This document shows, piece after piece, positions 35,494-47,604 of a stretch of 64,000 bases of DNA. The translations under genes were made by a program, and so were the position numbers. The notes beneath the pieces are model-generated. The model was not told the origin of the DNA. It was given only the letters and a program-made list of their open reading frames with translations, and did not search any database. Positions within the stretch are counted from its first letter, which is position 1; the number at the start of each line of letters is the position of its first letter. Source of the stretch: Hyphomicrobiales bacterium (GTDB lineage: Bacteria; Pseudomonadota; Alphaproteobacteria; Rhizobiales; Rhizobiaceae). The stretch spans positions 186,001-250,000 of the forward strand of contig UBYX01000010.1 of the NCBI GenBank assembly GCA_900469955.1, read 5' to 3'.

Positions 35494-36081
35494 ATGCCGG
35501 CTCCCGATCTCACCATTCTGGTTATTGACGAAAATGCCATCCGCGCTTCCATCATCGAGGAAGGGCTGCGGGAGGCTGGCCATGACAAGGTGACGGTAAT
35601 TCATGAGGTTCAGGGCGTTGCCCGGATCATCGAGACGTTGAAGCCGGACGTGATCGTCATTGATATCGAAAACCCGAACCGTGACATGATGGAGCACCTG
35701 TTCCAGCTCACGCGCACCGTGAGCCGGCCGATCGCCATGTTTGTAGACCGGTCCGATACGGCACTCATCGAGGCGGCGATGGAAGCAGGCGTCTCGGCTT
35801 ATGTGGTGGACGGGCTCAAGAAGGAACGCGTCAAATCCATCCTCGACATGGCGATCAGCCGCTTCAACGCCTTCAGCCGCCTGCAGCGTGAACTGGCCGA
35901 TGCGAAATCGGCGCTCGAGGAACGGAAGGTCATCGAGCGCGCCAAAGGGATTCTCATGAAGATGCGCGGCCTTTCTGAAGAGGAAGCCTTCGCGCTGCTT
36001 CGCCAAACCGCCATGAATGAAAAAAAGAAGATGTCCGAGATCGCGCAGAGCGTCGTCACCGCCGCCGGACTTCTGATGTGA
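35494..36081 (+). CDS. nasT: ANTAR-domain response regulator NasT, nitrate antiterminator
   Basis: A 195-residue protein with a pseudo-receiver domain (1-120; [23 protein letters not shown]) and a C-terminal ANTAR RNA-binding helix bundle (about 130-190; [33 protein letters not shown]). NasT binds paired hairpins in leader RNAs and prevents early termination of nitrate assimilation genes; NasS sequesters it without nitrate or nitrite. The NasS gene follows after about 40 bases, and leaders with matching hairpins occur upstream of narK and of nasA in this window. Confidence 0.93.
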
Positions 36082-36124
36082 TGTTTTCGACCAGGAAAAT
36101 TTCCGGGAGAAAGCCGGAGTGAAC

Positions 36125-37396
36125 ATGATGACGAAAATCAGCCAATCCGGAAGCGATCTCGCCGCGCCCGCACGCGTCGATGGCGAAGGCCCGAAAGTCT
36201 TGCGCGCCGGCTTCATTCCGCTTGTGGATGCCTCAGTGCTGATCGCCGCCGCCGAATTCGGCTTTGCGCGCAAGGAAGGTCTGACGCTCGACCTCGTGAA
36301 GGACGTGTCCTGGGCGAACGTGCGCGATCGCCTCGCCTTCCGTCAATTCGACATCGCCCACATGCTGTCGCCCATGCCGGTCGCCTCCATGCTCGGCCTC
36401 GGCTCCAACCCGTCGCCCACCATCACGCCATTCTCGCTCGGGCGGGGCGGAAATGCGATCACGCTCTCAAAGCCCCTTTTCGAGCGGATAAGAGATGTCG
36501 GCGGAATTGCGGAGCCTGCAGGCGCGCTGGAAATCGCCGAGGCCCTGGCAGAGGTGCTGCAGGCAATGAAGGAGCGGGGAGAACCGCTGCCGACGCTCGG
36601 GGTAACCTACCCCTTCTCCTCGCACAATTACGAGCTTCGCTACTGGCTGGCAGCCGGAGGCATCGATCCCGACCGCGACGTGAAGCTGGTTGTCGTTCCG
36701 CCGCCGCTGACCTCGGACGCCCTTGCGGCAGGAGCCATCGACGGTTTCTGCGTCGGAGCGCCTTGGAACATGGTTGCCTCCGAGCGTGGCCTCGGCCGCA
36801 TTGTCGCGGCCAAGCAGGATATCTGGCCATCGGCACCGGAAAAAGTGCTTGGCATGCGACCGGACTGGGCGGAAAGTCATCCGGAAACCGTTTCGCGCCT
36901 GATTGTCGCGCTCGATGCCGCCGCCCGCTGGTGCGACCAACCGGAAAATCACGATGCACTCGCCGAAGTGTTGGCCGATCCCCGCTTCATCGCCGCGCCG
37001 GCCGATATCATCCGCCAGGTGCTCGCGGGACAATTCAGCCTTGATGACAAGGGAAACCGCCGCGTTATCGAAGATTATTTCACGTTCCATCGCGGTTTTG
37101 CGAACTATCCGAGACCAAGCCAGGCCTTGTGGATCTACAGTCAGATGATCCGATGGGGCCAGGTGCAGTTCGGCGATGAACGTCTCGGCGCGGTCGCGAG
37201 CGCCTATCGTCCCGATCTCTACCGCGCCGCTTTGGGCACAGGCCCGGAAGATGCCGATATTGGTACCGCGGGCGACCAGAGCGGTGACCGTTTCATGGAC
37301 GGCCATGTTTTCGATCCGTCCGACATACCTGCCTATATCGAGCGCTTTGCCGTCCGCACCACGGCGGCCAACCCTGCCGACCGAAACGAAATCTGA
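36125..37396 (+). CDS. nasS: Nitrate/nitrite sensor NasS (NrtA-like, cytosolic)
   Basis: About 423 residues of the CmpA/NrtA substrate-binding family (VLRAGFIPLVDASVLIAAAEFGFARKEGL at the start; VGAPWNMVASERGLGRIVA in the middle). No signal peptide or twin-arginine motif is present, so it stays in the cytosol, as expected for NasS, the partner that holds NasT. The ATG at 36125 has CCGGAG before it; a GTG at 36119 in the same frame is equally possible. It is co-transcribed with nasT, and its end is followed by the sigma-54 promoter of the structural genes. Confidence 0.92.
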   Translation: MMTKISQSGSDLAAPARVDGEGPKVLRAGFIPLVDASVLIAAAEFGFARKEGLTLDLVKDVSWANVRDRLAFRQFDIAHMLSPMPVASMLGLGSNPSPTITPFSLGRGGNAITLSKPLFERIRDVGGIAEPAGALEIAEALAEVLQAMKERGEPLPTLGVTYPFSSHNYELRYWLAAGGIDPDRDVKLVVVPPPLTSDALAAGAIDGFCVGAPWNMVASERGLGRIVAAKQDIWPSAPEKVLGMRPDWAESHPETVSRLIVALDAAARWCDQPENHDALAEVLADPRFIAAPADIIRQVLAGQFSLDDKGNRRVIEDYFTFHRGFANYPRPSQALWIYSQMIRWGQVQFGDERLGAVASAYRPDLYRAALGTGPEDADIGTAGDQSGDRFMDGHVFDPSDIPAYIERFAVRTTAANPADRNEI

Positions 37397-37552
37397 TATT
37401 TCGGCAACCCTCTCTGCACATCCTTTGCGCGCCCTCAATTTAGCAATCGCACAAAAATATTGCAGCACAAAAGACAGCAACTTATTTAAGCTGTAAATTT
37501 CATATCAGAAATACGTATTGTAATTCAATCCCTTAACGAAGCACCCAAAAAC

Positions 37553-37568
37553 TGGCACACCCTTTGCA
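37553..37568 (+). promoter_or_regulatory. Sigma-54 promoter of the nitrate operon
   Basis: TGGCAC-ACCCT-TTGCA matches the sigma-54 -24/-12 consensus (TGGCAC-N5-TTGCA) exactly, with the invariant GG and GC ten bases apart. Transcription would begin around 37579-37581, just before the first leader hairpin. This implies RpoN with an activator such as NtrC, so the operon answers to nitrogen limitation as well as to nitrate through NasST. The rest of 37397-37552 is AT-richer and shows no clear NtrC site by eye. Confidence 0.85.
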
Positions 37569-37583
37569 TTGCTTATCTTGCAT

Positions 37584-37708
37584 CGGTCAATGGCGACCGG
37601 CGCAGATAGGCGCGGCATAAGCGCCTACACAAGACACCGACGTCGCAAGGTCTTTGCTGTCCGGGATCCTCCCATCCCGTGGACGCAATTTCCGAGCGGC
37701 GTTTTTTT
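37584..37708 (+). promoter_or_regulatory. Leader RNA with ANTAR-type hairpin and attenuator
   Basis: The presumed 5' end of the transcript starts with hairpin CGGTC-AATGGC-GACCG (37584-37599); its six-base loop has A at position 1 and G at position 4, the ANTAR target rule. A second hairpin TAGGCGC-GGCATAA-GCGCCTA (37607-37627) has a seven-base loop. Further on GGGAT-CCTCCC-ATCCC (37663-37678) and a run of seven T at 37702-37708 suggest an attenuator. NasT binding would let polymerase through. The second loop does not obey the A1/G4 rule, so details of the paired motif are uncertain. Confidence 0.7.
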
Positions 37709-37741
37709 GTGCCCAAACCGGCCAGCAGAGGGAACCTGCGC

Positions 37742-37843
37742 ATGACCAAGATTTTGAAGACCGGCATCACACGCCGCAGCATGCTCGAGATGACTGCCGC
37801 CGCCCGTGTTGGCGCAGGCAAAGCCAGCAGCCTTTCGTTTTAA
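37742..37843 (+). pseudogene. nrtA: Remnant of nrtA: twin-arginine signal start only
   Basis: A 33-codon frame with a ribosome site (AGAGGGA) begins MTKILKTGITRRSMLEMTAAA and then runs RVGAGKASSLSF to a stop. The first 21 residues look like the Tat signal start of the nitrate-binding protein NrtA of rhizobia (a TRRSML motif followed by an alanine run), the gene normally placed first after this type of leader. The sequence breaks off after the alanine run, and narK starts 46 bases after the stop. I read it as the scar of an nrtA(BC) deletion; translation of the short peptide may persist and could still couple to narK. Confidence 0.7.
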
Positions 37844-37889
37844 CTCTCAACCGATGGATTGGCACGACACTGTCGGCCGGGAGAAGCAC

Positions 37890-39149
37890 ATGTCTTTTTC
37901 TGAAAAAACACAGTCGATACCCACTAACGAACCTGCCAAGGCATTGTGGATCTCCACAACCGCCTTCACTATCTGTTTCGCGGTCTGGACGATTTTCGCG
38001 ATCATAGGCGTTCGCATCAAACAGGAACTCGGCCTCACCGAAGCACAGTTCGGATTGTTGGTGGGCACACCTGTATTGACCGGATCGCTCATCCGGATCG
38101 TGCTCGGAATATGGACGAGCCGCTACGGTGGCCGTCTCGTCTATACGCTCACGATGCTGGCGGCGGCACTCGCAACCTTCCTGCTGTCCTATGCCACGAC
38201 CTACACGGAGATGCTGATCGCCGGACTCGGCGTCGGCCTCGCTGGCGGCTCCTTCGCTGTCGGCGTTGCATACGTCTCGCCGTTCTTCCCGCCGGAAAAA
38301 CAGGGCACCGCACTCGGCATCTTCGGTGCCGGCAATGTCGGCGCCGCCGTCACGAAATTCGCAGCCCCCTTTGTGCTGGTCGCGTGGGGATGGCAGGCAG
38401 TTGCGGAAATCTGGGCTCTCGCGCTTGTGGCCATGGCCGTCATCTTCTGGTTTACCACGACCGATGATCCAGCGTTCCGTGATCGCCGCAAGCGTGGCGT
38501 AGCGCCGAAGAGCCTGCGCCAGGAATTCGCACCGCTCAAGAACGTCCAGGTCTGGCGCTTCTCGCTCTACTATTTCTTTGCCTTCGGTGGCTTCGTCGCC
38601 CTGTCGCTTTGGCTGCCGCGCTACCTGGTCGGCATCTATGGCTTCGATCTCGCGACCGCCGGCATGATCGCCGCCGCATATTCCATACCTGGCAGCATCT
38701 TCCGCGCATTTGGCGGCATGCTCTCCGACAAGAAGGGTGCCCGCAGCGTCATGTACTGGATGCTTGTCGTTTCGGCAGTCGCGACCCTCATCCTTTCGCT
38801 GCCGGCCGCAACCGGAACCGGATTCGGCATTACACCGGCCATCTTCATCGCGGTCACTTTCGTGCTCGGTTTCTTCATGAGCCTCGGCAAGGCGGCCGTC
38901 TTCAAGCACATCCCTGCCTACTACCCCGACAGCGTCGGCGCGGTGGGCGGTATCGTCGGCATGGTGGGCGGCCTCGGCGGCTTCGTCCTGCCGATCGCCT
39001 TCGGCCTGCTGAAAGACATCACCGGCCTCTGGACCAGCTGCTTCATGCTGCTCTTCGTCGTCGTCGCCGTCTCGCTGGTGTGGATGCACCTGTCGGTGAG
39101 GCAAATCGACCGCCAGAAGCTCTCCACGCCCGCCGTGGCCGCCGCTTAA
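37890..39149 (+). CDS. narK: Nitrate/nitrite MFS transporter NarK
   Basis: A 419-residue major facilitator protein with about 12 helices. The NarK signature glycine-rich segments are present: GLGVGLAGGSFAVGVAYVSPFFP and, in the second half, GAVGGIVGMVGGLGGFVLP; the arginines in RIVLGIWTSRYGGR and AYSIPGSIFRAFGG are the expected nitrate contacts. It imports nitrate for the cytosolic nitrate reductase. The ATG at 37890 follows GGGAGAA; an in-frame start at 37806 would overlap the nrtA remnant. It is the first intact gene after the NasT leader. Confidence 0.93.
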   Translation: MSFSEKTQSIPTNEPAKALWISTTAFTICFAVWTIFAIIGVRIKQELGLTEAQFGLLVGTPVLTGSLIRIVLGIWTSRYGGRLVYTLTMLAAALATFLLSYATTYTEMLIAGLGVGLAGGSFAVGVAYVSPFFPPEKQGTALGIFGAGNVGAAVTKFAAPFVLVAWGWQAVAEIWALALVAMAVIFWFTTTDDPAFRDRRKRGVAPKSLRQEFAPLKNVQVWRFSLYYFFAFGGFVALSLWLPRYLVGIYGFDLATAGMIAAAYSIPGSIFRAFGGMLSDKKGARSVMYWMLVVSAVATLILSLPAATGTGFGITPAIFIAVTFVLGFFMSLGKAAVFKHIPAYYPDSVGAVGGIVGMVGGLGGFVLPIAFGLLKDITGLWTSCFMLLFVVVAVSLVWMHLSVRQIDRQKLSTPAVAAA

Positions 39150-39168: not shown

Positions 39169-41619
39169 ATGACTGAAAAACTTGTTATCATCGGCAATGG
39201 CATGGCCCCCGGGCGCATGCTGGAACACCTCTTCGAGCAGGCACCCGGCCGATACGAGGTCACGATCTTCAACGCCGAACCGCGCGTCAATTACGACCGC
39301 ATCATGCTCTCGCCCGTTCTCTCGGGCGAGAAGGACTACGAGCAGATCATCATTCACGGCGACGGCTGGTACATCAAGCACGGCATAACGCTCTACAAGG
39401 GCCACAAGATCATCGCGATCGACCGCGCCGCAAAGACCGTGACCTCCAACCACGGCGTCACCGAGAGCTACGACAAGCTGGTGATCGCCACCGGCTCGGT
39501 GCCGTTCATCATTCCGGTGCCCGGCAAGGAACTGCCCGGCGTCATCACCTATCGCGACCTGGACGACGTCAACGCCATGCTGCTCGCCGCCCAGTCGCGC
39601 GCCAAGGCCGTCGTCATCGGCGGGGGCCTGCTGGGGCTCGAAGCCGCGGCCGGCCTTGCCGAGCGGGGCATGGATGTGACCGTGCTGCATGTCATGCCGA
39701 CGCTGATGGAGCGCCAACTTGACCCGGCCGCAGGATATCTGCTGCAAAAAGCCGTCGAAGACCGGGGCATCAAGGTCATCTGTAAGGCAAACACCAAGGC
39801 GATCGTCGGCAACGGCAAGGTCGAAGGCATCGAACTCGACGACGGCCGCATCATTCCGGCAACGCTTGTGGTCATGGCGGTCGGCATTCGCCCGAGCGTC
39901 GGTCTTGCCAAGGAAGCCGGCCTTGCCGTCAACCGCGGCATCGTGGTTGACGCCGGCATGCAGACATCGGACGGCGACATCTATTCCGTCGGCGAATGCG
40001 CCGAAGTGGGCGGCATGGTCTATGGTCTCGTCGCCCCGCTCTACGAAATGGCGCGCGTCGCCGCTTCCCATCTCGCCGGCGACAGCAAGCCGGCTTTCGT
40101 GCATTCCGACACTCCGACCAAGCTCAAGGTCACCGGCATCGACCTCTACTCGCTCGGCGACTTCGCCGATGGCGACGATCGCCAGGAAATCGTGCTCCGC
40201 GATGCGACCGCAGGCGTCTACAAACGCCTCGTCCTCAAGGACAACCGCATCATCGGCACCGTGCTCTACGGTGAGACCTCCGATGGCGCATGGTTCAACG
40301 ATCTGAAGAAGAAGGCGACCGACATCTCCGAGATGCGCGACACGCTGATCTTCGGGCAGGCTTACCAGGGAGGGTCCCCGCTGGACCCTATGGCGGCCGT
40401 TGCAGCCTTGCCGGATGATGCGGAAATCTGTGGCTGCAACGGCGTCTGCAAGGGCAAGATCACCTCGACGATCACGGCCAAAGGCCTGACGTCACTGGAT
40501 GATGTCCGCGCTCACACAAAGGCCTCCGCCTCCTGCGGCAGCTGTACCGGGCTCGTCGAGCAGTTGATGGCCCTCACGCTTGGCGATGCCTACAACCCGG
40601 CCGCCGTTACGCCGATGTGCACCTGCACCGAACTCGGCCACGACGACGTGCGCCGCCTGATCAAGGCGAAGAAGCTGAAGACCATACCTGCCGTGATGCA
40701 GGAACTGGAGTGGAAGACCTCCTGCGGCTGTGCCAAGTGCCGCCCGGCGCTCAACTATTACCTCGTCTGCGACTGGCCGGACGAATATGCCGACGACTAC
40801 CAGTCGCGCTTCATCAATGAACGCGTCCACGCCAATATCCAGAAGGACGGCACCTATTCCGTCGTGCCGCGCATGTGGGGCGGCGTCACCAACTCGCAGG
40901 AACTGCGGGCGATCGCCGACGTGGTCGACAAGTTCGAAATCCCGCTGGTGAAGGTGACCGGCGGTCAGCGTATCGACCTTCTCGGTATCGAGAAGGAGGA
41001 TCTGCCCGCCGTCTGGGCCGATCTCGGCAAGGCGGGCTTCGTTTCCGGCCAGGCCTATGCCAAGGGCCTGCGCACCGTAAAGACCTGCGTCGGCTCCGAC
41101 TGGTGCCGCTTCGGCACCCAGGACTCGACCGGCTTGGGCATCCGCATCGAGAAGTTCATGTGGGGTTCCTGGACGCCGGCCAAGCTGAAGATGGCCGTCT
41201 CAGGGTGTCCGCGCAACTGCGCGGAAGCGACCTGCAAGGATATCGGCGTCATCTGCGTGGATTCCGGTTTCGAGATCCACTTTGCGGGTGCGGCTGGCCT
41301 CGACATCAAGGGCACGGAAGTGCTCGGTCTCGTGAAGACCGAAGATGAGGCGCTCGAGCATATCGTGGCACTCACCCAGATGTACCGCGAGCAGGGCCGC
41401 TATCTGGAGCGCATCTACAAGTGGGCCAAACGCATCGGCCTCGACGAAATCCGCCGGCAGATCATGGACGACCAGGAGAAGCGCGAGGCCTATTACGAAC
41501 GCTTCGTCTTCAGCCAGAAATTCGCCCAGGTCGATCCCTGGTCCGAGCGCGTCTCGGGCAAGGACAAGCACGAGTTCAGGCCGATGGCGACGGTCGGTTT
41601 CAATCAGGCGGCGGAGTGA
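39169..41619 (+). CDS. nirB: Assimilatory nitrite reductase large subunit
   Basis: An 816-residue NAD(P)H-nitrite reductase subunit reducing nitrite to ammonium. N-terminal FAD/NAD domains (LVIIGNGMAPGRMLEHL; AVVIGGGLLGLEAAAGLAERG) are followed by a BFD-type [2Fe-2S] domain (CGCNGVCKGKI ... SCGSCTGLV, about 422-465) and the nitrite/sulfite reductase domains. Siroheme/[4Fe-4S] cysteines are in TCVGSDWC and GCPRNC. It lies 19 bases after narK and six before nirD. Confidence 0.97.
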   Translation: MTEKLVIIGNGMAPGRMLEHLFEQAPGRYEVTIFNAEPRVNYDRIMLSPVLSGEKDYEQIIIHGDGWYIKHGITLYKGHKIIAIDRAAKTVTSNHGVTESYDKLVIATGSVPFIIPVPGKELPGVITYRDLDDVNAMLLAAQSRAKAVVIGGGLLGLEAAAGLAERGMDVTVLHVMPTLMERQLDPAAGYLLQKAVEDRGIKVICKANTKAIVGNGKVEGIELDDGRIIPATLVVMAVGIRPSVGLAKEAGLAVNRGIVVDAGMQTSDGDIYSVGECAEVGGMVYGLVAPLYEMARVAASHLAGDSKPAFVHSDTPTKLKVTGIDLYSLGDFADGDDRQEIVLRDATAGVYKRLVLKDNRIIGTVLYGETSDGAWFNDLKKKATDISEMRDTLIFGQAYQGGSPLDPMAAVAALPDDAEICGCNGVCKGKITSTITAKGLTSLDDVRAHTKASASCGSCTGLVEQLMALTLGDAYNPAAVTPMCTCTELGHDDVRRLIKAKKLKTIPAVMQELEWKTSCGCAKCRPALNYYLVCDWPDEYADDYQSRFINERVHANIQKDGTYSVVPRMWGGVTNSQELRAIADVVDKFEIPLVKVTGGQRIDLLGIEKEDLPAVWADLGKAGFVSGQAYAKGLRTVKTCVGSDWCRFGTQDSTGLGIRIEKFMWGSWTPAKLKMAVSGCPRNCAEATCKDIGVICVDSGFEIHFAGAAGLDIKGTEVLGLVKTEDEALEHIVALTQMYREQGRYLERIYKWAKRIGLDEIRRQIMDDQEKREAYYERFVFSQKFAQVDPWSERVSGKDKHEFRPMATVGFNQAAE

Positions 41620-41624
41620 GGAAT

Positions 41625-41963
41625 ATGACGATGAACTGGATTGCAATCGGCAAGATCGATGACATCCCGCTTCGCGGCGCCCGCTGCGTGAAGACACCCA
41701 TGGGCAAGATCGGCGTATTCCGCACCGCCGAGAACCAGGTCTTCGCCATTGAAGACCACTGCCCCCACAAGGGCGGACCTCTTAGCCAGGGGATCGTACA
41801 CGGCACCTCGGTGACTTGTCCCCTCCACAACTGGGTGATCTCGCTCGAAACCGGCAAGGCTCTCGGCGCCGACGAAGGCGCCGTCAAAACCATTCAGCTA
41901 GAACTGCGCGGCGACGACATCTTCATGGCTCTCGAGAGCCTGGCGCTCGCCGCGGCCGAATAA
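41625..41963 (+). CDS. nirD: Nitrite reductase small subunit, Rieske-type
   Basis: A 112-residue Rieske-like protein. Unlike E. coli NirD, the cluster ligands are all present: C46 and H48 in DHCPHKGG and C65 and H68 in TCPLHNW. It should therefore carry a [2Fe-2S] cluster and pass electrons within the NirB complex. ATG at 41625, six bases after the nirB stop, with GGAG at the join (GCGGAGTGAGGAATATG). Confidence 0.95.
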   Translation: MTMNWIAIGKIDDIPLRGARCVKTPMGKIGVFRTAENQVFAIEDHCPHKGGPLSQGIVHGTSVTCPLHNWVISLETGKALGADEGAVKTIQLELRGDDIFMALESLALAAAE

Positions 41964-42012: not shown

Positions 42013-42858
42013 ATGTCCTACGTAGCGCCGCAGGAACTTGCGACGAAAATGATCGACGCGGGTGAATCGAAAATCTTCATGTCCACCAAGGACACCTTGA
42101 TCCGCGCCTATATGGCCGGTGCAATCCTGGCGCTGGCAGCGGCCTTCGCCGTCACCGTCACCGTCAACACCGGGCAGCCGCTGCTCGGCGCGCTGCTCTT
42201 CCCGGTCGGCTTCTGCATGCTCTACCTGATGGGCTTCGATCTGCTCACCGGCGTATTCACGCTTGTACCGCTGGCCTTGATCGCCAAGCGTCCCGGCGTG
42301 ACGGTAGGCGGCGTGCTGCGCAACTGGGGTCTCGTCTTCGTCGGCAATTTCGCCGGCTCCATGACGACCGCCGTCTTCATGGCGATCATCTTCACCATGG
42401 GCTTTTCCGAGGCGCCCAACGCGGTCGGACAGAAGATCGGCGTGATCGGTGAATCGCGGACGATCGGCTATGCAGCCGCCGGAGCGGCCGGCATGCTGAC
42501 CCTTTTCGTGCGGGCGGTCATGTGCAACTGGATGGTTTCGACAGGGGTCATCGGCGCAATGATGTCGAACTCGGTCTCCGGCAAGGTCATTGCCATGTGG
42601 ATGCCGATCCTGGTCTTCTTCTATCTCGGTTTCGAGCATTCCATCGTCAACATGTACCTCTTCCCCTCGGGCATCATGCTGGGCGGTCAATTCACCTGGC
42701 TGGACTATTTCCTCTGGAACGAGATCCCAACCGTGGTCGGCAACCTTGTGGGCGGCCTGACCTTTGTCGGCGGCGTCATCTACGCCACCCACTACAAGAC
42801 ATCGCCGAGCCGCAAGGGTGAGGAAAAGCCCGCCACACGGCTTGTCGCTGCGGAGTAA
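42013..42858 (+). CDS. Formate/nitrite transporter family protein, probable nitrite channel
   Basis: A 281-residue FNT-family pentameric channel subunit with six helices. Family marks are IRAYMAGAILALAAAF, the LMGFDLLTGVFTLVPLA segment and the second-half FEHSIVNMYLFPSGIMLGG, including the central histidine. In this setting it most likely moves nitrite, like NirC, balancing nitrite between NarK, nitrate reductase and NirBD. It follows nirD by 49 bases. A strong GC hairpin separates it from the next gene. Confidence 0.88.
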   Translation: MSYVAPQELATKMIDAGESKIFMSTKDTLIRAYMAGAILALAAAFAVTVTVNTGQPLLGALLFPVGFCMLYLMGFDLLTGVFTLVPLALIAKRPGVTVGGVLRNWGLVFVGNFAGSMTTAVFMAIIFTMGFSEAPNAVGQKIGVIGESRTIGYAAAGAAGMLTLFVRAVMCNWMVSTGVIGAMMSNSVSGKVIAMWMPILVFFYLGFEHSIVNMYLFPSGIMLGGQFTWLDYFLWNEIPTVVGNLVGGLTFVGGVIYATHYKTSPSRKGEEKPATRLVAAE

Positions 42859-42908: not shown

Positions 42909-44642
42909 ATGCTGCAGTCTCTCGCCCCGGGCAAGCTCGTGCTCGACATCGGCCAGTATTCCGCACCCGGCCGCAAGACGATCAATCAGGATTTCCACGG
43001 CGCCATCGTCCCCGAGGGCGCCGCATTGACAATGAAAGGCGTCGCCCTTGCCATCGCCGATGGCATCTCCTCGAGCCCGGTCAGCCACATCGCCGCCGAG
43101 ACCGCGGTCAAGAGCTTCCTGACCGACTACTACTGCACCTCCGACGCCTGGACGGTAAAGACCGCCGCAAGCCGCGTGATCGACGCGACCAATTCCTGGC
43201 TCAACGCCCAGAACCGCGGCGTGGAGGATCGCGACCATGCGCATGTGACGACGTTCTCCGCACTCGTGCTGAAAGGGCGGCAGGCGCACGTCTTCCATGT
43301 GGGCGACAGCCGTATCTGGCGGTTGTCCGGCGGCAATCTCGAGCCGTTGACGACCGACCACCGCCTGACGCCCTCGCAGAGCGAAAGCTATCTGGGCCGG
43401 GCGCTTGGTCTCCTCCCTTCCGTCGAGATCGACTATCACCGGCTGGACATCCACCCCGGCGATATTTTCGTGCTGACCACCGACGGCGTCCATGACCACG
43501 TCGCTCCCCGCCATATTGCCGCGCGCCTCATGCCAACAGGAGATCTGTCGGCAGCAGCAAAGGATATCGCGGCCTCGGCATACGAATCGGGAAGCGACGA
43601 CAACCTGACGATCCAGATCGTCAGGATCGAAAACCTGCCGGACGATGATTTCGAACCGGTCTTCGATCATGCGGGTTCGCTGCCTCCGGCACCCCTGCCT
43701 CGGATTCCCGGCGATTTTGAAGGGTACCGGCTCCATCGGCAGATCCACGCGAGCAGTCGCAGCCACATCTTTTTCGCGACCGAACCGGAAACCGGCGAGA
43801 AGGTGGTCCTGAAATTTCCCTCGGCAGATCTGCGAGAGGACGAGAACTACCTTCGGCGCTTCGCAATGGAGGAGTGGATTGCCCGCCGCGTGTCGAGCGT
43901 TCATGTGTTGAAGAGCCGACATCCGCTCAAGCCGCGCCGGTCGCTCTATCTCGTCACTGATTTCGTAGAAGGCGAGACGCTTGCGCAGTGGATGGCGGAC
44001 CACCCGAAAGCCGATCTCCGTTCGGTGCGTGACATCATCGGCCAGATTGCCAGCGGGCTTCGTGCCCTGCACCGGAAGGAAATCATCCACCAGGATCTGC
44101 GGCCAGAAAACGTCATGATCGACCGGAGCGGCACCGTAAAGATCATCGACTTCGGATCGGCAGCGGTGGCCGGAGTGATCGAAGCGGCCCCGAGCTTGGA
44201 TGACGCCGACATACTCGGAACCGTGCAATACGCCGCGCCGGAATATTTTGCCGGCGACCGGGGAAGCGAGCAATCCGACCTCTATTCGCTCGGGGTAATC
44301 GCCTACCAGATGCTGACGGGCCGCCTGCCCTATGGTCCCGCGGTGGCACGCACAAGAAGTCGGAAAGAGCAGCAGAAATTACGCTTTGCCAGCCTGCGCG
44401 AAATACGTCCCGATGTGCCGGATTGGGTTGAGGAGACAATCCGCAAGGCGGTCCATCCTGACCCCGCCAAGCGATACGCAGAACTCTCTGAATTCGAATA
44501 CGACCTGTCGCATCCGAACGCCAAGCTTCTGGGCACACGCCCGCCATCCCTGATGGAGCGTAATCCATTACTCTTCTGGCAGGTTTTGAGCCTGTTTTTA
44601 GGGCTTGTTATTGTTGGTCTACTGGCGCGAGACTTCGTTTGA
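42909..44642 (+). CDS. PP2C phosphatase-Ser/Thr kinase fusion with C-terminal membrane anchor
   Basis: A 577-residue two-domain signalling protein. Residues 1-240 are a PP2C phosphatase with metal aspartates D51 (IADG), D133 (VGDSR), D192 (TTDG) and D230/231 (GSDDN). Residues 270-535 are a Hanks-type kinase: K302 in VVLKFPS, catalytic D396 in HQDLRPEN (HQD for HRD), N401, and intact D414-F-G. The glycine-rich loop is degenerate (IHASSRSHIFFA). A single hydrophobic helix, about 552-572, anchors it to the membrane. It is placed inside the nitrate operon, as also seen in some gammaproteobacteria; its target is unknown, with transporters or NasA as candidates. Confidence 0.88.
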   Translation: MLQSLAPGKLVLDIGQYSAPGRKTINQDFHGAIVPEGAALTMKGVALAIADGISSSPVSHIAAETAVKSFLTDYYCTSDAWTVKTAASRVIDATNSWLNAQNRGVEDRDHAHVTTFSALVLKGRQAHVFHVGDSRIWRLSGGNLEPLTTDHRLTPSQSESYLGRALGLLPSVEIDYHRLDIHPGDIFVLTTDGVHDHVAPRHIAARLMPTGDLSAAAKDIAASAYESGSDDNLTIQIVRIENLPDDDFEPVFDHAGSLPPAPLPRIPGDFEGYRLHRQIHASSRSHIFFATEPETGEKVVLKFPSADLREDENYLRRFAMEEWIARRVSSVHVLKSRHPLKPRRSLYLVTDFVEGETLAQWMADHPKADLRSVRDIIGQIASGLRALHRKEIIHQDLRPENVMIDRSGTVKIIDFGSAAVAGVIEAAPSLDDADILGTVQYAAPEYFAGDRGSEQSDLYSLGVIAYQMLTGRLPYGPAVARTRSRKEQQKLRFASLREIRPDVPDWVEETIRKAVHPDPAKRYAELSEFEYDLSHPNAKLLGTRPPSLMERNPLLFWQVLSLFLGLVIVGLLARDFV

Positions 44643-44931: not shown

Positions 44932-47604
44932 ATGCATCCAGAACTCGGACATGAGAGCAGCATAAAGACCACCTGCGCCTATTGCGGCGTCGGCTGCGGC
45001 GTCATCGCCTCGGTGGACGAAGCCGGCGTGGTCAAGGTCGCAGGCGATCCCGATCATCCCGCTAATTATGGGCGACTCTGTTCGAAGGGCTCGGCCCTCG
45101 CCGAGACCATAGATCTCGACGGTCGCGTCCTCTTTCCCGAGATCCACGGCGAGCGCGCCGACTGGGATGAGGCACTCAATCTCGTTGCCCGGAAGTTTAC
45201 CGAGGCCATTGCCGAACACGGACCGGATGCCGTAGCCTTCTATGTCTCCGGCCAGTTGCTGACGGAAGACTATTACGTCGCAAACAAGCTGATGAAGGGC
45301 TTCATCGGCTCTGCCAACATCGATACCAATTCCCGGCTCTGCATGTCCTCTTCCGTCGCCGGCCATCGCCGCGCCTTCGGCTCCGACACCGTGCCCGGCA
45401 CCTACGAAGACCTGGAACTCGCCGACCTCGTCATCCTCACCGGCTCTAACCTCGCCTGGTGTCATCCCGTCATCTACCAGCGACTGGCAGCAGCAAAAGC
45501 TGCACGCCCGGCGATGAAGGTGATCGTCATCGATCCGCGCCGCACCATGACCTGCGACATCGCCGACCTGCACCTGGCCATCCGGCCGGATGGCGACACG
45601 GCCTTGTTCATGGGGTTGCTCGCGCATCTCGCAAAAAGCACCGCGATCGACGAGAACTATATTGCCGCCCATACCCAAGGTTTCGCAGAAGCTTTTGCTG
45701 TCGCTTCCGCGCTCCCTTTTTCTGAACTGATGGAGCGCACGGGCCTCCCGGCGATGGAGATCAAGGAATTCTTCCGCCTGTTCGAGACGACGGAAAAGGT
45801 GGTCACCTGCTACAGTCAGGGCGTCAACCAGTCTTCCTCAGGCACCGACAAGGTCAACGCGATCCTCAACTGCCATCTGGCGACGGGTCGCATCGGGAAA
45901 CCGGGCATGGGGCCCTTCTCGCTGACCGGTCAACCAAACGCCATGGGCGGCCGCGAAGTCGGCGGCCTCGCCAACATGCTCGCGGCCCACATGGCGATCG
46001 AAAACCCGGATCATCGCGACCGGGTGCAGCGGTTCTGGGCATCCCCGACTATCGCGCAAAAGCCCGGCCTCAAGGCGGTAGACATGTTTCGTGCCGTGGC
46101 CGACGGGCGGATCAAGGCGCTCTGGATCATGGCGACCAATCCCGTTGTCTCGATGCCGGACGCGGCCGCGGTCGAAGCGGCGATCAAGGCCTGCCCCTTC
46201 GTTGTCGTCTCAGACATTCTGCCCGACACGGACACGGCGCGCCACGCCCATGTTCTCCTGCCCTCGCTCGGCTGGGGAGAGAAAGACGGCACCGTCACCA
46301 ATTCCGAACGCCGAATTTCTCGCCAACGACGCTTTCTGGCCGCTCCCGGGGAAGCCAAAGCCGACTGGTGGCAGCTTGCTGAAGTCGGACGCCGCATGGG
46401 TTTCGCCGGTTTCGATTTTCGGTCTCAAGTCGAGATTTTCGCCGAACATGCAGCCCTCTCGGCGTTCGAGAACAACGGCAGCCGCGATTTCGACATCGGC
46501 GCCCATGAGGCGATCGACCGGAACGCGTATGACGGCCTCGCGCCCTTCCAATGGCCGCTACCTGCAGGCTCGGAACCTGGGACGACGCGCTTCTTTGCCG
46601 ATGGCGGTTTCTACCACCCCGATCGCAAGGCGCGCTTCGTTACCGTGCAAGCGCCAGCGACCGATCGGACCAGCAAACGATATCCGTTGACCCTGAACAC
46701 CGGCCGCATCCGCGACCATTGGCACACCATGACCCGGACCGGCAGAAGCGCCAGGCTTTCGGGCCACATCGCCGAACCCTTTGCCGAAATCCATCCTGCC
46801 GATGCGATGAAAGTCGGCGTCAAGGGCGCCGGCCTCGTGGAAGTGGAAAGCGCTTTCGGCAAAACCGTCGTGCGGGCGCTGGTGACCGAACGGCAGGCAC
46901 AGGGAAACGTCTTTGTGCCGATGCACTGGAACGACCAGTTCGCGGCGCAGGCACGCATCGATACGCTTGTTGCTCCCTTGACCGACCCTCATTCGGGCCA
47001 GCCGGCATCCAAGAACGTCCCCGTTGTCGTCCGCCCGTTCGCTGCAGCATTCTATGGATTTGCCGTATCGTCGGCCAAACCCGCCGGGGTCACCGCAGAC
47101 TACTGGGCACTCGCCAAAGCCGACGGCGGATGGAGAACGGAACTCGCCTTCAGCACCCAGATCAGCGACTGGACCGCCTGGTGCCGTAATGCCTTTTCAA
47201 TCGATGCCGATCTCGAACCGCTCGGTTATGCCGATCATGACACCGGCATCCTGCGGCTTGCCTTCTTCGATGGCTCGAAACTGCTCGCCGCCCTTTTCGT
47301 GGCGCGAGAACCCGTCGCCGTCGCCCGCAACTGGGCAATCGCACAACTGACCGCCGAACACAGCAACCTTCGCAAGCGCTTTGCCATCGTCGCGGGTCGC
47401 CCCGGTGCGAACCAGCCGGATCCGGGCGCAACCGTCTGCTCGTGCTTCTCGGTTGGCGTCAACCGCATCATCGGCGCTGTCCGCGGCGGCTGCCACAGCG
47501 TCGAATCTGTCGGCAAGGAAACCAATGCCGGCACCAATTGCGGCTCCTGCCGCGCCGAAATCAGGGGGATCATCGATGGATGTCTTGCAGCAGCAGCGGA
47601 ATGA
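44932..47604 (+). CDS. nasA: Assimilatory nitrate reductase catalytic subunit
   Basis: An 890-residue cytosolic molybdoenzyme (MGD type). Four cysteines for the N-terminal [4Fe-4S] cluster are C15, C18, C22 and C50 (TCAYCGVGCGV, GRLCSKGS). The molybdenum cysteine lies in NSRLCMSSSVAGH. A C-terminal BFD-like [2Fe-2S] domain (TVCSCFSVGVNRI ... TNCGSCRAEI) is the electron entry, as in single-polypeptide NasA/NasC types. It reduces nitrate to nitrite for NirBD. ATG 44932 after GAGGAA gives the conserved start; the frame is open further upstream through the leader terminator, which is rejected. cysG overlaps its last 29 bases. Confidence 0.95.
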   Translation: MHPELGHESSIKTTCAYCGVGCGVIASVDEAGVVKVAGDPDHPANYGRLCSKGSALAETIDLDGRVLFPEIHGERADWDEALNLVARKFTEAIAEHGPDAVAFYVSGQLLTEDYYVANKLMKGFIGSANIDTNSRLCMSSSVAGHRRAFGSDTVPGTYEDLELADLVILTGSNLAWCHPVIYQRLAAAKAARPAMKVIVIDPRRTMTCDIADLHLAIRPDGDTALFMGLLAHLAKSTAIDENYIAAHTQGFAEAFAVASALPFSELMERTGLPAMEIKEFFRLFETTEKVVTCYSQGVNQSSSGTDKVNAILNCHLATGRIGKPGMGPFSLTGQPNAMGGREVGGLANMLAAHMAIENPDHRDRVQRFWASPTIAQKPGLKAVDMFRAVADGRIKALWIMATNPVVSMPDAAAVEAAIKACPFVVVSDILPDTDTARHAHVLLPSLGWGEKDGTVTNSERRISRQRRFLAAPGEAKADWWQLAEVGRRMGFAGFDFRSQVEIFAEHAALSAFENNGSRDFDIGAHEAIDRNAYDGLAPFQWPLPAGSEPGTTRFFADGGFYHPDRKARFVTVQAPATDRTSKRYPLTLNTGRIRDHWHTMTRTGRSARLSGHIAEPFAEIHPADAMKVGVKGAGLVEVESAFGKTVVRALVTERQAQGNVFVPMHWNDQFAAQARIDTLVAPLTDPHSGQPASKNVPVVVRPFAAAFYGFAVSSAKPAGVTADYWALAKADGGWRTELAFSTQISDWTAWCRNAFSIDADLEPLGYADHDTGILRLAFFDGSKLLAALFVAREPVAVARNWAIAQLTAEHSNLRKRFAIVAGRPGANQPDPGATVCSCFSVGVNRIIGAVRGGCHSVESVGKETNAGTNCGSCRAEIRGIIDGCLAAAAE

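Follow-up and report, generated by a model that had tools for sequence, protein, structure and literature searches.

A 33-codon reading frame before narK is very probably the scar of an nrtABC-to-narK exchange in a Rhizobiaceae bacterium

A 33-codon ORF (37742..37843, plus strand) in front of narK in a nitrate assimilation (nas) operon is very probably a recombination scar. It combines the start of nrtA with DNA from a narK leader and would mark the exchange of nrtABC for narK; this estimate covers the chimera and the exchange, whatever the order of events. The window, i.e. the whole analysed stretch of 64,000 nucleotides, comes from a soil bacterium of the Rhizobiaceae. As the sequence comparisons support, a nitrate pump encoded by several genes appears to have been replaced here by a carrier encoded by one, without a change of the nitrate-responsive RNA switch in front. 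The locus provides a base-level record of a transporter class that was displaced by an unrelated one inside an operon, with the RNA switch held constant. Parallel cases with different joints may reveal which joints work and how a new first gene fits an old leader, and they open the question whether ABC and MFS nitrate uptake swap with lifestyle. Among the listed full-text matches, which mostly do not cover subscription journals, no paper describing the exchange was found by title or abstract.

Genes of the nas operon

All genes of the operon lie on the plus strand. It begins with nasT (35494..36081), encoding a response regulator with an ANTAR domain (Pfam), and nasS (36119..37396), encoding an NrtA-like nitrate sensor (Pfam NMT1_2; NrtA relatives in the PDB). 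Behind the leader follow narK (37890..39149), a gene for an MFS nitrate/nitrite transporter according to domain searches and structure homology, and a frame at 39169..41619 which, from its sequence features, we take to be nirB. This frame stands in a gene order common to relatives, and so does nirD (41625..41963, start inferred from the ORF). Next are the genes for a formate/nitrite transporter (FNT, 42013..42858), a PP2C phosphatase-kinase fusion (42909..44642) and the assimilatory nitrate reductase, nasA (44962..47604, start uncertain), all three identified by Pfam. The phosphatase-protein kinase fusion is located between FNT and nasA also in the same-genus genomes G001 and G013.

The narK product is homologous to the solved NarK structure 4u4t (E 1.2e-23) and is in this respect a NarK-like MFS transporter. 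Its score lies below the curated cut-off of TIGR00886 (225.5 vs 311.7 bits), with the profile matched over 1-368 of 368. The protein is a putative nitrate/nitrite carrier, whose direction of transport should not be assumed. For NarK from Bradyrhizobium, the available part of one report describes nitrite export, not a role as main nitrate importer (PMC4724949). The nearest NarK among named records belongs to Neorhizobium alkalisoli DSM 21826 (97%, L125); besides N. alkalisoli, no NarK above 85% appears among the matches listed. An exact narK donor was not found in a scan covering 80 of 576 relatives.

Promoter and leader

A sigma-54 type promoter site, TGGCACACCCTTTGCA (37553..37568), agrees exactly with what we take to be the consensus and is the sole such match in the 64 kb window, with 0.03 expected. 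It is followed by two predicted hairpins and a terminator. P1 (37574..37608), with the loop AAUGGC at 37589-37594, emerges from folding and the leader alignment. P2 (37609..37625, 7-base loop GGCAUAA) and the terminator (37640..37708, U-run 37702-37708) are indicated by folding and covariation. The region 37570-37720 folds with -65.1 kcal/mol (z -4.67). Across 32 leaders the structure of the window pairs in 86.5% of cells, compared with 35-43% for slid versions, and both-sided changes occur in 18 of 40 pairs (mean of shuffles 12.3; one shuffle in 500 reached 18). Pairing is weak in the outer helix of P1, at 61% of cells.

The first loop reads AA[CU]GG[CU] with A1 and G4 invariant in all 32 leaders, following the rule for the first hairpin of ANTAR leaders. 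The P2 stem is kept in 94.4% of cells; its 7-base loop departs from the second loop rule (6 bases, A1/G4). Two further features of ANTAR/NasT leaders are present, namely adjacent nasT and nasS and a downstream intrinsic terminator. Rfam gave one sub-threshold match over 37300-37950 (RF03032 narK RNA, 23.2 vs a gathering score of 43.2 bits), which was not used. From the hairpin features and from work on Paracoccus and Bradyrhizobium we infer that NasT controls this leader. NasT dependence of narK itself should not be presumed, because in Bradyrhizobium diazoefficiens narK goes up under denitrifying conditions when nasT is deleted, despite predicted hairpins, according to the accessible part of that study (PMC6759348).

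Homology to nrtA

A preliminary description of this DNA had noted a short frame with a ribosome site and an NrtA-like start, and the match to nrtA is now evident in both DNA and protein. AGAGGGAACCTGCGC directly precedes the ORF, whose translation is MTKILKTGITRRSMLEMTAAARVGAGKASSLSF. Its start, MTKILKTGITRRSML, resembles NrtA starts such as MTKILTTGITRRCMLKTTATAALIGAVKTAF of G013. The nrtA-type ribosome site (37727..37741) is part of a block, 37723-37745 (CAGCAGAGGGAACCTGCGCATGA), that is invariant in eight aligned sequences; this block exceeds the length needed for a ribosome site.

The region 37550-37821, comprising promoter, leader, ribosome site and about 20-26 codons, can be aligned in many Rhizobiaceae with the leader and the first part of nrtA. 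The proposed comparison with nrtA upstream regions thereby gave a clear answer, and the alternative that these codons lack any similarity to nrtA does not hold. In a blastn search with 37397-37900, 254 plasmid records matched (136 Rhizobium, 115 Sinorhizobium, 3 others; best E 6e-69), with matches spanning at most about 37543 to 37824. A feature under the match is named in 10 of the 40 rows listed of these 254, and it is always CmpA/NrtA or CmpA. Among 57 same-genus genomes, the window's own included, 43 are matched by 37550-37900. The resemblance to nrtA is far beyond chance.

The best other match in the genus is G013 (93% over 37550-37821), which carries nasT-nasS-leader-nrtABC-nirB-nirD-FNT-kinase-nasA. 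The order in the window is the same, with narK replacing nrtABC. A relative with nrtABC at this very place, which the preliminary description had proposed to look for, therefore exists. Its view that an MFS carrier replaced a nitrate ABC transporter behind the leader is supported by the position of narK in the slot of nrtABC of G013, NasT control being presumed. Identity to G013 is 94.5% in the leader and complete in the spacer with the ribosome site (27/27 bases). Codons 1-15 agree in 43/45 bases. In an eight-sequence alignment, one of the two differences among these 72 compared bases is an oddity of G013. Further downstream, at 37787-37821, 28 of 35 bases are equal and a 3-base gap occurs.

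No nrtA was found elsewhere in the genome of the window, which has a listed completeness of 100%; as the assembly consists of 80 contigs, an nrtA may have been missed. The best match to NrtA in this genome is NasS (34%) and the best match to NrtB reaches 31%; Pfam adds three more members of the broader family, all of them weaker. In N. alkalisoli (G001), a second leader-nrtABC copy is located on another contig, with no nasTS beside it (L040).

The joint with the narK flank

The ORF evidently is an nrtA/narK-leader chimera and more than a truncated NrtA. Matches on the nrtA side, examined in 24 larger loci, end at 37821 in nine and at 37822 in one, and earlier in the others; one weak match (E 0.24) extends to 37825. 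The narK-side stretch is matched in 30 of 87 narK loci, a set in which some genomes occur twice and the window's own is included. It starts at 37823-37825 in 25 of these 30, at 37805 in one and later in four. The breakpoint, mapped against narK loci as had been proposed, thus runs from 37821/37822 to 37823-37825 and appears sharp in most comparisons, with a blur from about 37800. Both sides have a short GGCGC-like stretch near the joint, and the match of one narK locus starts at 37805; for these reasons, any position between about 37800 and 37823 could be the point of junction.

The nrtA-aligning part of the ORF is hence 37742..37821, with its end blurred as described, and about 20-26 of the 33 codons derive from nrtA. 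The remainder and the stop (TAA, 37841-37843) derive from narK-leader DNA, which makes up the final six residues. In the surviving 33-residue peptide of the preliminary description, the NrtA part is accordingly confined to these first codons. From codon 16 the ORF departs from residues kept in NrtA: K16E, T17M, one codon lost and Arg in place of an NrtA Leu. No Pfam or NCBIfam match was obtained for the 33-residue peptide, which lacks the substrate-binding domain of NrtA. The narK ATG at 37890 lies 46 bases past the ORF stop, exactly as first described.

The native 5' flank of narK (37823..37889), recognized by alignments to narK loci, starts inside the 3' arm of the terminator from narK's own leader, continues with an eroded U-run and leads to the narK ribosome site. 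Relatives with a narK leader carry GCCAGCGGC, a T-run and then GTTTTAAC or similar; the window reads GCCAGCAGCCTTTCGTTTTAAC. An intact narK terminator (L066) folds with -34.9 kcal/mol (z -5.22), compared with z -0.22 for the remnant at 37785-37850. At 37861-37878, a hairpin-like element, GGCACGAC...GTCGGCC, precedes the narK ribosome site and is strongly conserved in 17 narK 5' flanks. On the other side of narK, the spacer to nirB resembles those of narK loci, unlike the nrtC-nirB spacer of G013. For the right joint, a comparison in blocks of 100 bases over the first 900 of nirB gave no clear crossover.

Exchange of the slot in relatives

At 45 places in the 57 same-genus genomes, the gene behind the leader is nrtA in 33, narK in 4 (window, G001, G027, G028), FNT in 2 (G020, G048) and nirB in 5 (G002, G006, G019, G036, G050), with one place remaining without class. 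A sample of the family gave matches in 42 of 297 genomes at 44 places, 30 of which were classified: nrtA 24, narK 4 including the window, nirB 1 and one without class. Two loci were kept out of the classes, namely G018:C20, which matches over 37761-37803 only, and L180, which on reading contains a divergent NrtA-like gene. In G020 and G048, the FNT gene stands directly behind a NasT-type leader (L043, L038). In five same-genus genomes nirB does so, with no transporter gene between (L149, L150, L152, L154, L159).

The other cases of narK behind the nrtA-type leader differ in their joints. In N. alkalisoli the joint lies before narK's ribosome site and in Rhizobium sp. P32RR-XVIII at the U-run; in Rhizobium sp. 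LCM 4573 (G028) and G027 it is in frame, with about nine codons of nrtA before it. The nrtA ATG is the point of junction in Phyllobacterium salinisoli, G105, G196 and G312. A separate scar ORF was not seen in these cases.

On a quick tree of 88 NarK rows, narK behind the leader needs 4 changes as a label against all other rows, and 1 change when compared only with eight partial-leader rows. By the gene orders above, the slot has been exchanged repeatedly, and NarK behind the leader evidently comprises more than one clade. Given an open fork that joins them with the rest, a common origin may still apply to the window pair and to the Phyllobacterium-type group. A single narK arrival for all nine cases was rejected on the same tree (p-AU 3.75e-35).

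Age of the scar and order of events

Nei-Gojobori counts for window and N. alkalisoli give a dS of 0.212 for NarK, 0.208 for NasT, 0.202 for NasS, 0.169 for FNT and 0.290 for NirB. As the value for NarK is close to those of its neighbours NasT and NasS, narK predates the split of the two and has been inherited together with them. The picture differs from the nasS 3' end to the leader. Identity between window and N. alkalisoli is 94.9% in the 5' part of nasS, 81.1% at its 3' end, 67.3% in the intergenic DNA and 90.9% in the leader. On the tree, the two are 0.05 apart in the nasS 5' part and 0.28 apart in 37180-37715. As the drop in identity and the larger tree distance indicate, this region, from the nasS 3' end through the leader, is a recombination tract that one of the two lineages took in; with 22 rows it could be assigned to neither. 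Owing to this tract, re-import or refreshing of the nrtA start may have occurred, instead of its being kept in place. The preliminary description had leader, promoter and nrtA start kept and the ABC genes gone; all of the former are present and no nrtA was found elsewhere, whereas "kept" is weakened by the tract.

A neutral scar predating the split should have gathered about 7 changes in its first 72 bases (half of dS 0.2), and 2 are observed. Hence, the start piece may have been refreshed from an nrtABC locus, the scar may be younger than the split, or the start may be under selection. The order of the events could also be the reverse of a simple displacement, with narK already in the slot and the stretch from the nasS 3' end to the nrtA start imported later from an nrtABC relative, ending raggedly in the narK terminator. 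In a variant, homologous exchange refreshed an older scar up to about codon 15. Taken together, these two courses are possible, although clearly the less probable ones. They are in keeping with the anomalous tract 37180-37715, and with the contrast between the near-unchanged codons 1-15 and the stretch 37787-37821, where 7 of 35 bases and a 3-base gap differ from G013. However, the tract might belong to the N. alkalisoli lineage rather than to that of the window, and the agreement of the nasS 3' and intergenic DNA with G013 (74.7% and 73.3%) does not exceed expectation. Moreover, if the scar predates the split and was deleted in N. alkalisoli, the window need not have undergone a second illegitimate joining. 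Whichever order applies, nrtA DNA has been joined to narK in a slot that holds nrtABC in relatives.

We favour a displacement, an order that we infer, in which the ancestral operon would have been nasT-nasS-leader-nrtABC-nirBD with a NasT leader, and narK would have displaced the nrtABC cassette. It probably arrived from a relative carrying narK-nirB, together with the last 67 bases of its 5' flank. The left joint would be illegitimate, connecting nrtA codon ~20-27 to the 3' arm of the narK leader terminator near the GGCGC-like stretch, and the right joint would lie at or inside nirB, where the parents are alike. The product would retain the nrtA-type sigma-54 promoter and the nitrate-responsive leader, with narK's own leader lost and its terminator a dead half. 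Transcription of narK would proceed once NasT blocks formation of the leader terminator, with translation from its own ribosome site.

Role of the ORF

Most likely the 33-codon ORF is a by-product of the exchange. The distance from the leader U-run to narK is unusually long, at 181 bases; seven native narK loci have 53-54, the other narK joints 15-53 (counted by eye). Ribosomes at the surviving nrtA site may occupy this gap, 102 bases of which are filled by the ORF.

A present function is conceivable on these grounds, either by translation that shields the gap from termination or aids translation of narK, or by action of the peptide, with ribosome site and first codons under selection. The barely changed first 15 codons would fit. 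We nevertheless regard such a function as quite unlikely. Loci with an intact nrtA show no variation in this block either, and the few changes are explained if the scar is young or has been refreshed. Kept residues are altered from codon 16, and N. alkalisoli does without the ORF. Furthermore, 37715-37915 contains no attenuator-like structure and folds no better than shuffles (z 1.10). A somewhat bolder generalization, still rather unlikely in our view, is that NasT leader and nrtA ribosome site form an exchangeable transporter socket in Rhizobiaceae (for nrtABC, narK, FNT or nothing) and that the nrtA start of the window was co-opted, its 33-codon frame now serving as leader peptide or translation shield and making the over-long joint work. 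A chance ORF or an assembly chimera unrelated to nrtA is highly improbable: short ORFs are common (129 with 30 or more codons within 13 kb), but leader and start share 93% DNA identity with G013, ribosome site and frame are kept, and N. alkalisoli has a comparable, differently joined locus.

Comparison with known systems

The locus resembles the NasS-NasT antitermination systems of nas operons, in which, as far as the available parts of the reports describe, nasT-nasS stand by a hairpin/terminator leader before assimilation genes (Paracoccus, PMC3795266; Bradyrhizobium, PMC4724949 and PMC6759348). It differs from them in that another gene has taken the first place behind the leader, where a piece of the old first gene remains. 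The 6-base loop of P1 with A1/G4, before an intrinsic terminator, corresponds to the two-hairpin hexaloop leader of ANTAR proteins as outlined in the accessible part of PMC3369931, whereas P2 deviates from that model in folding with a 7-base loop without the A1/G4 pattern. With the leader-nrtABC operons of Rhizobiaceae (G013 and the plasmid records) the window shares promoter, leader, ribosome site and first codons; in contrast to them, it lacks nrtABC and carries narK instead.
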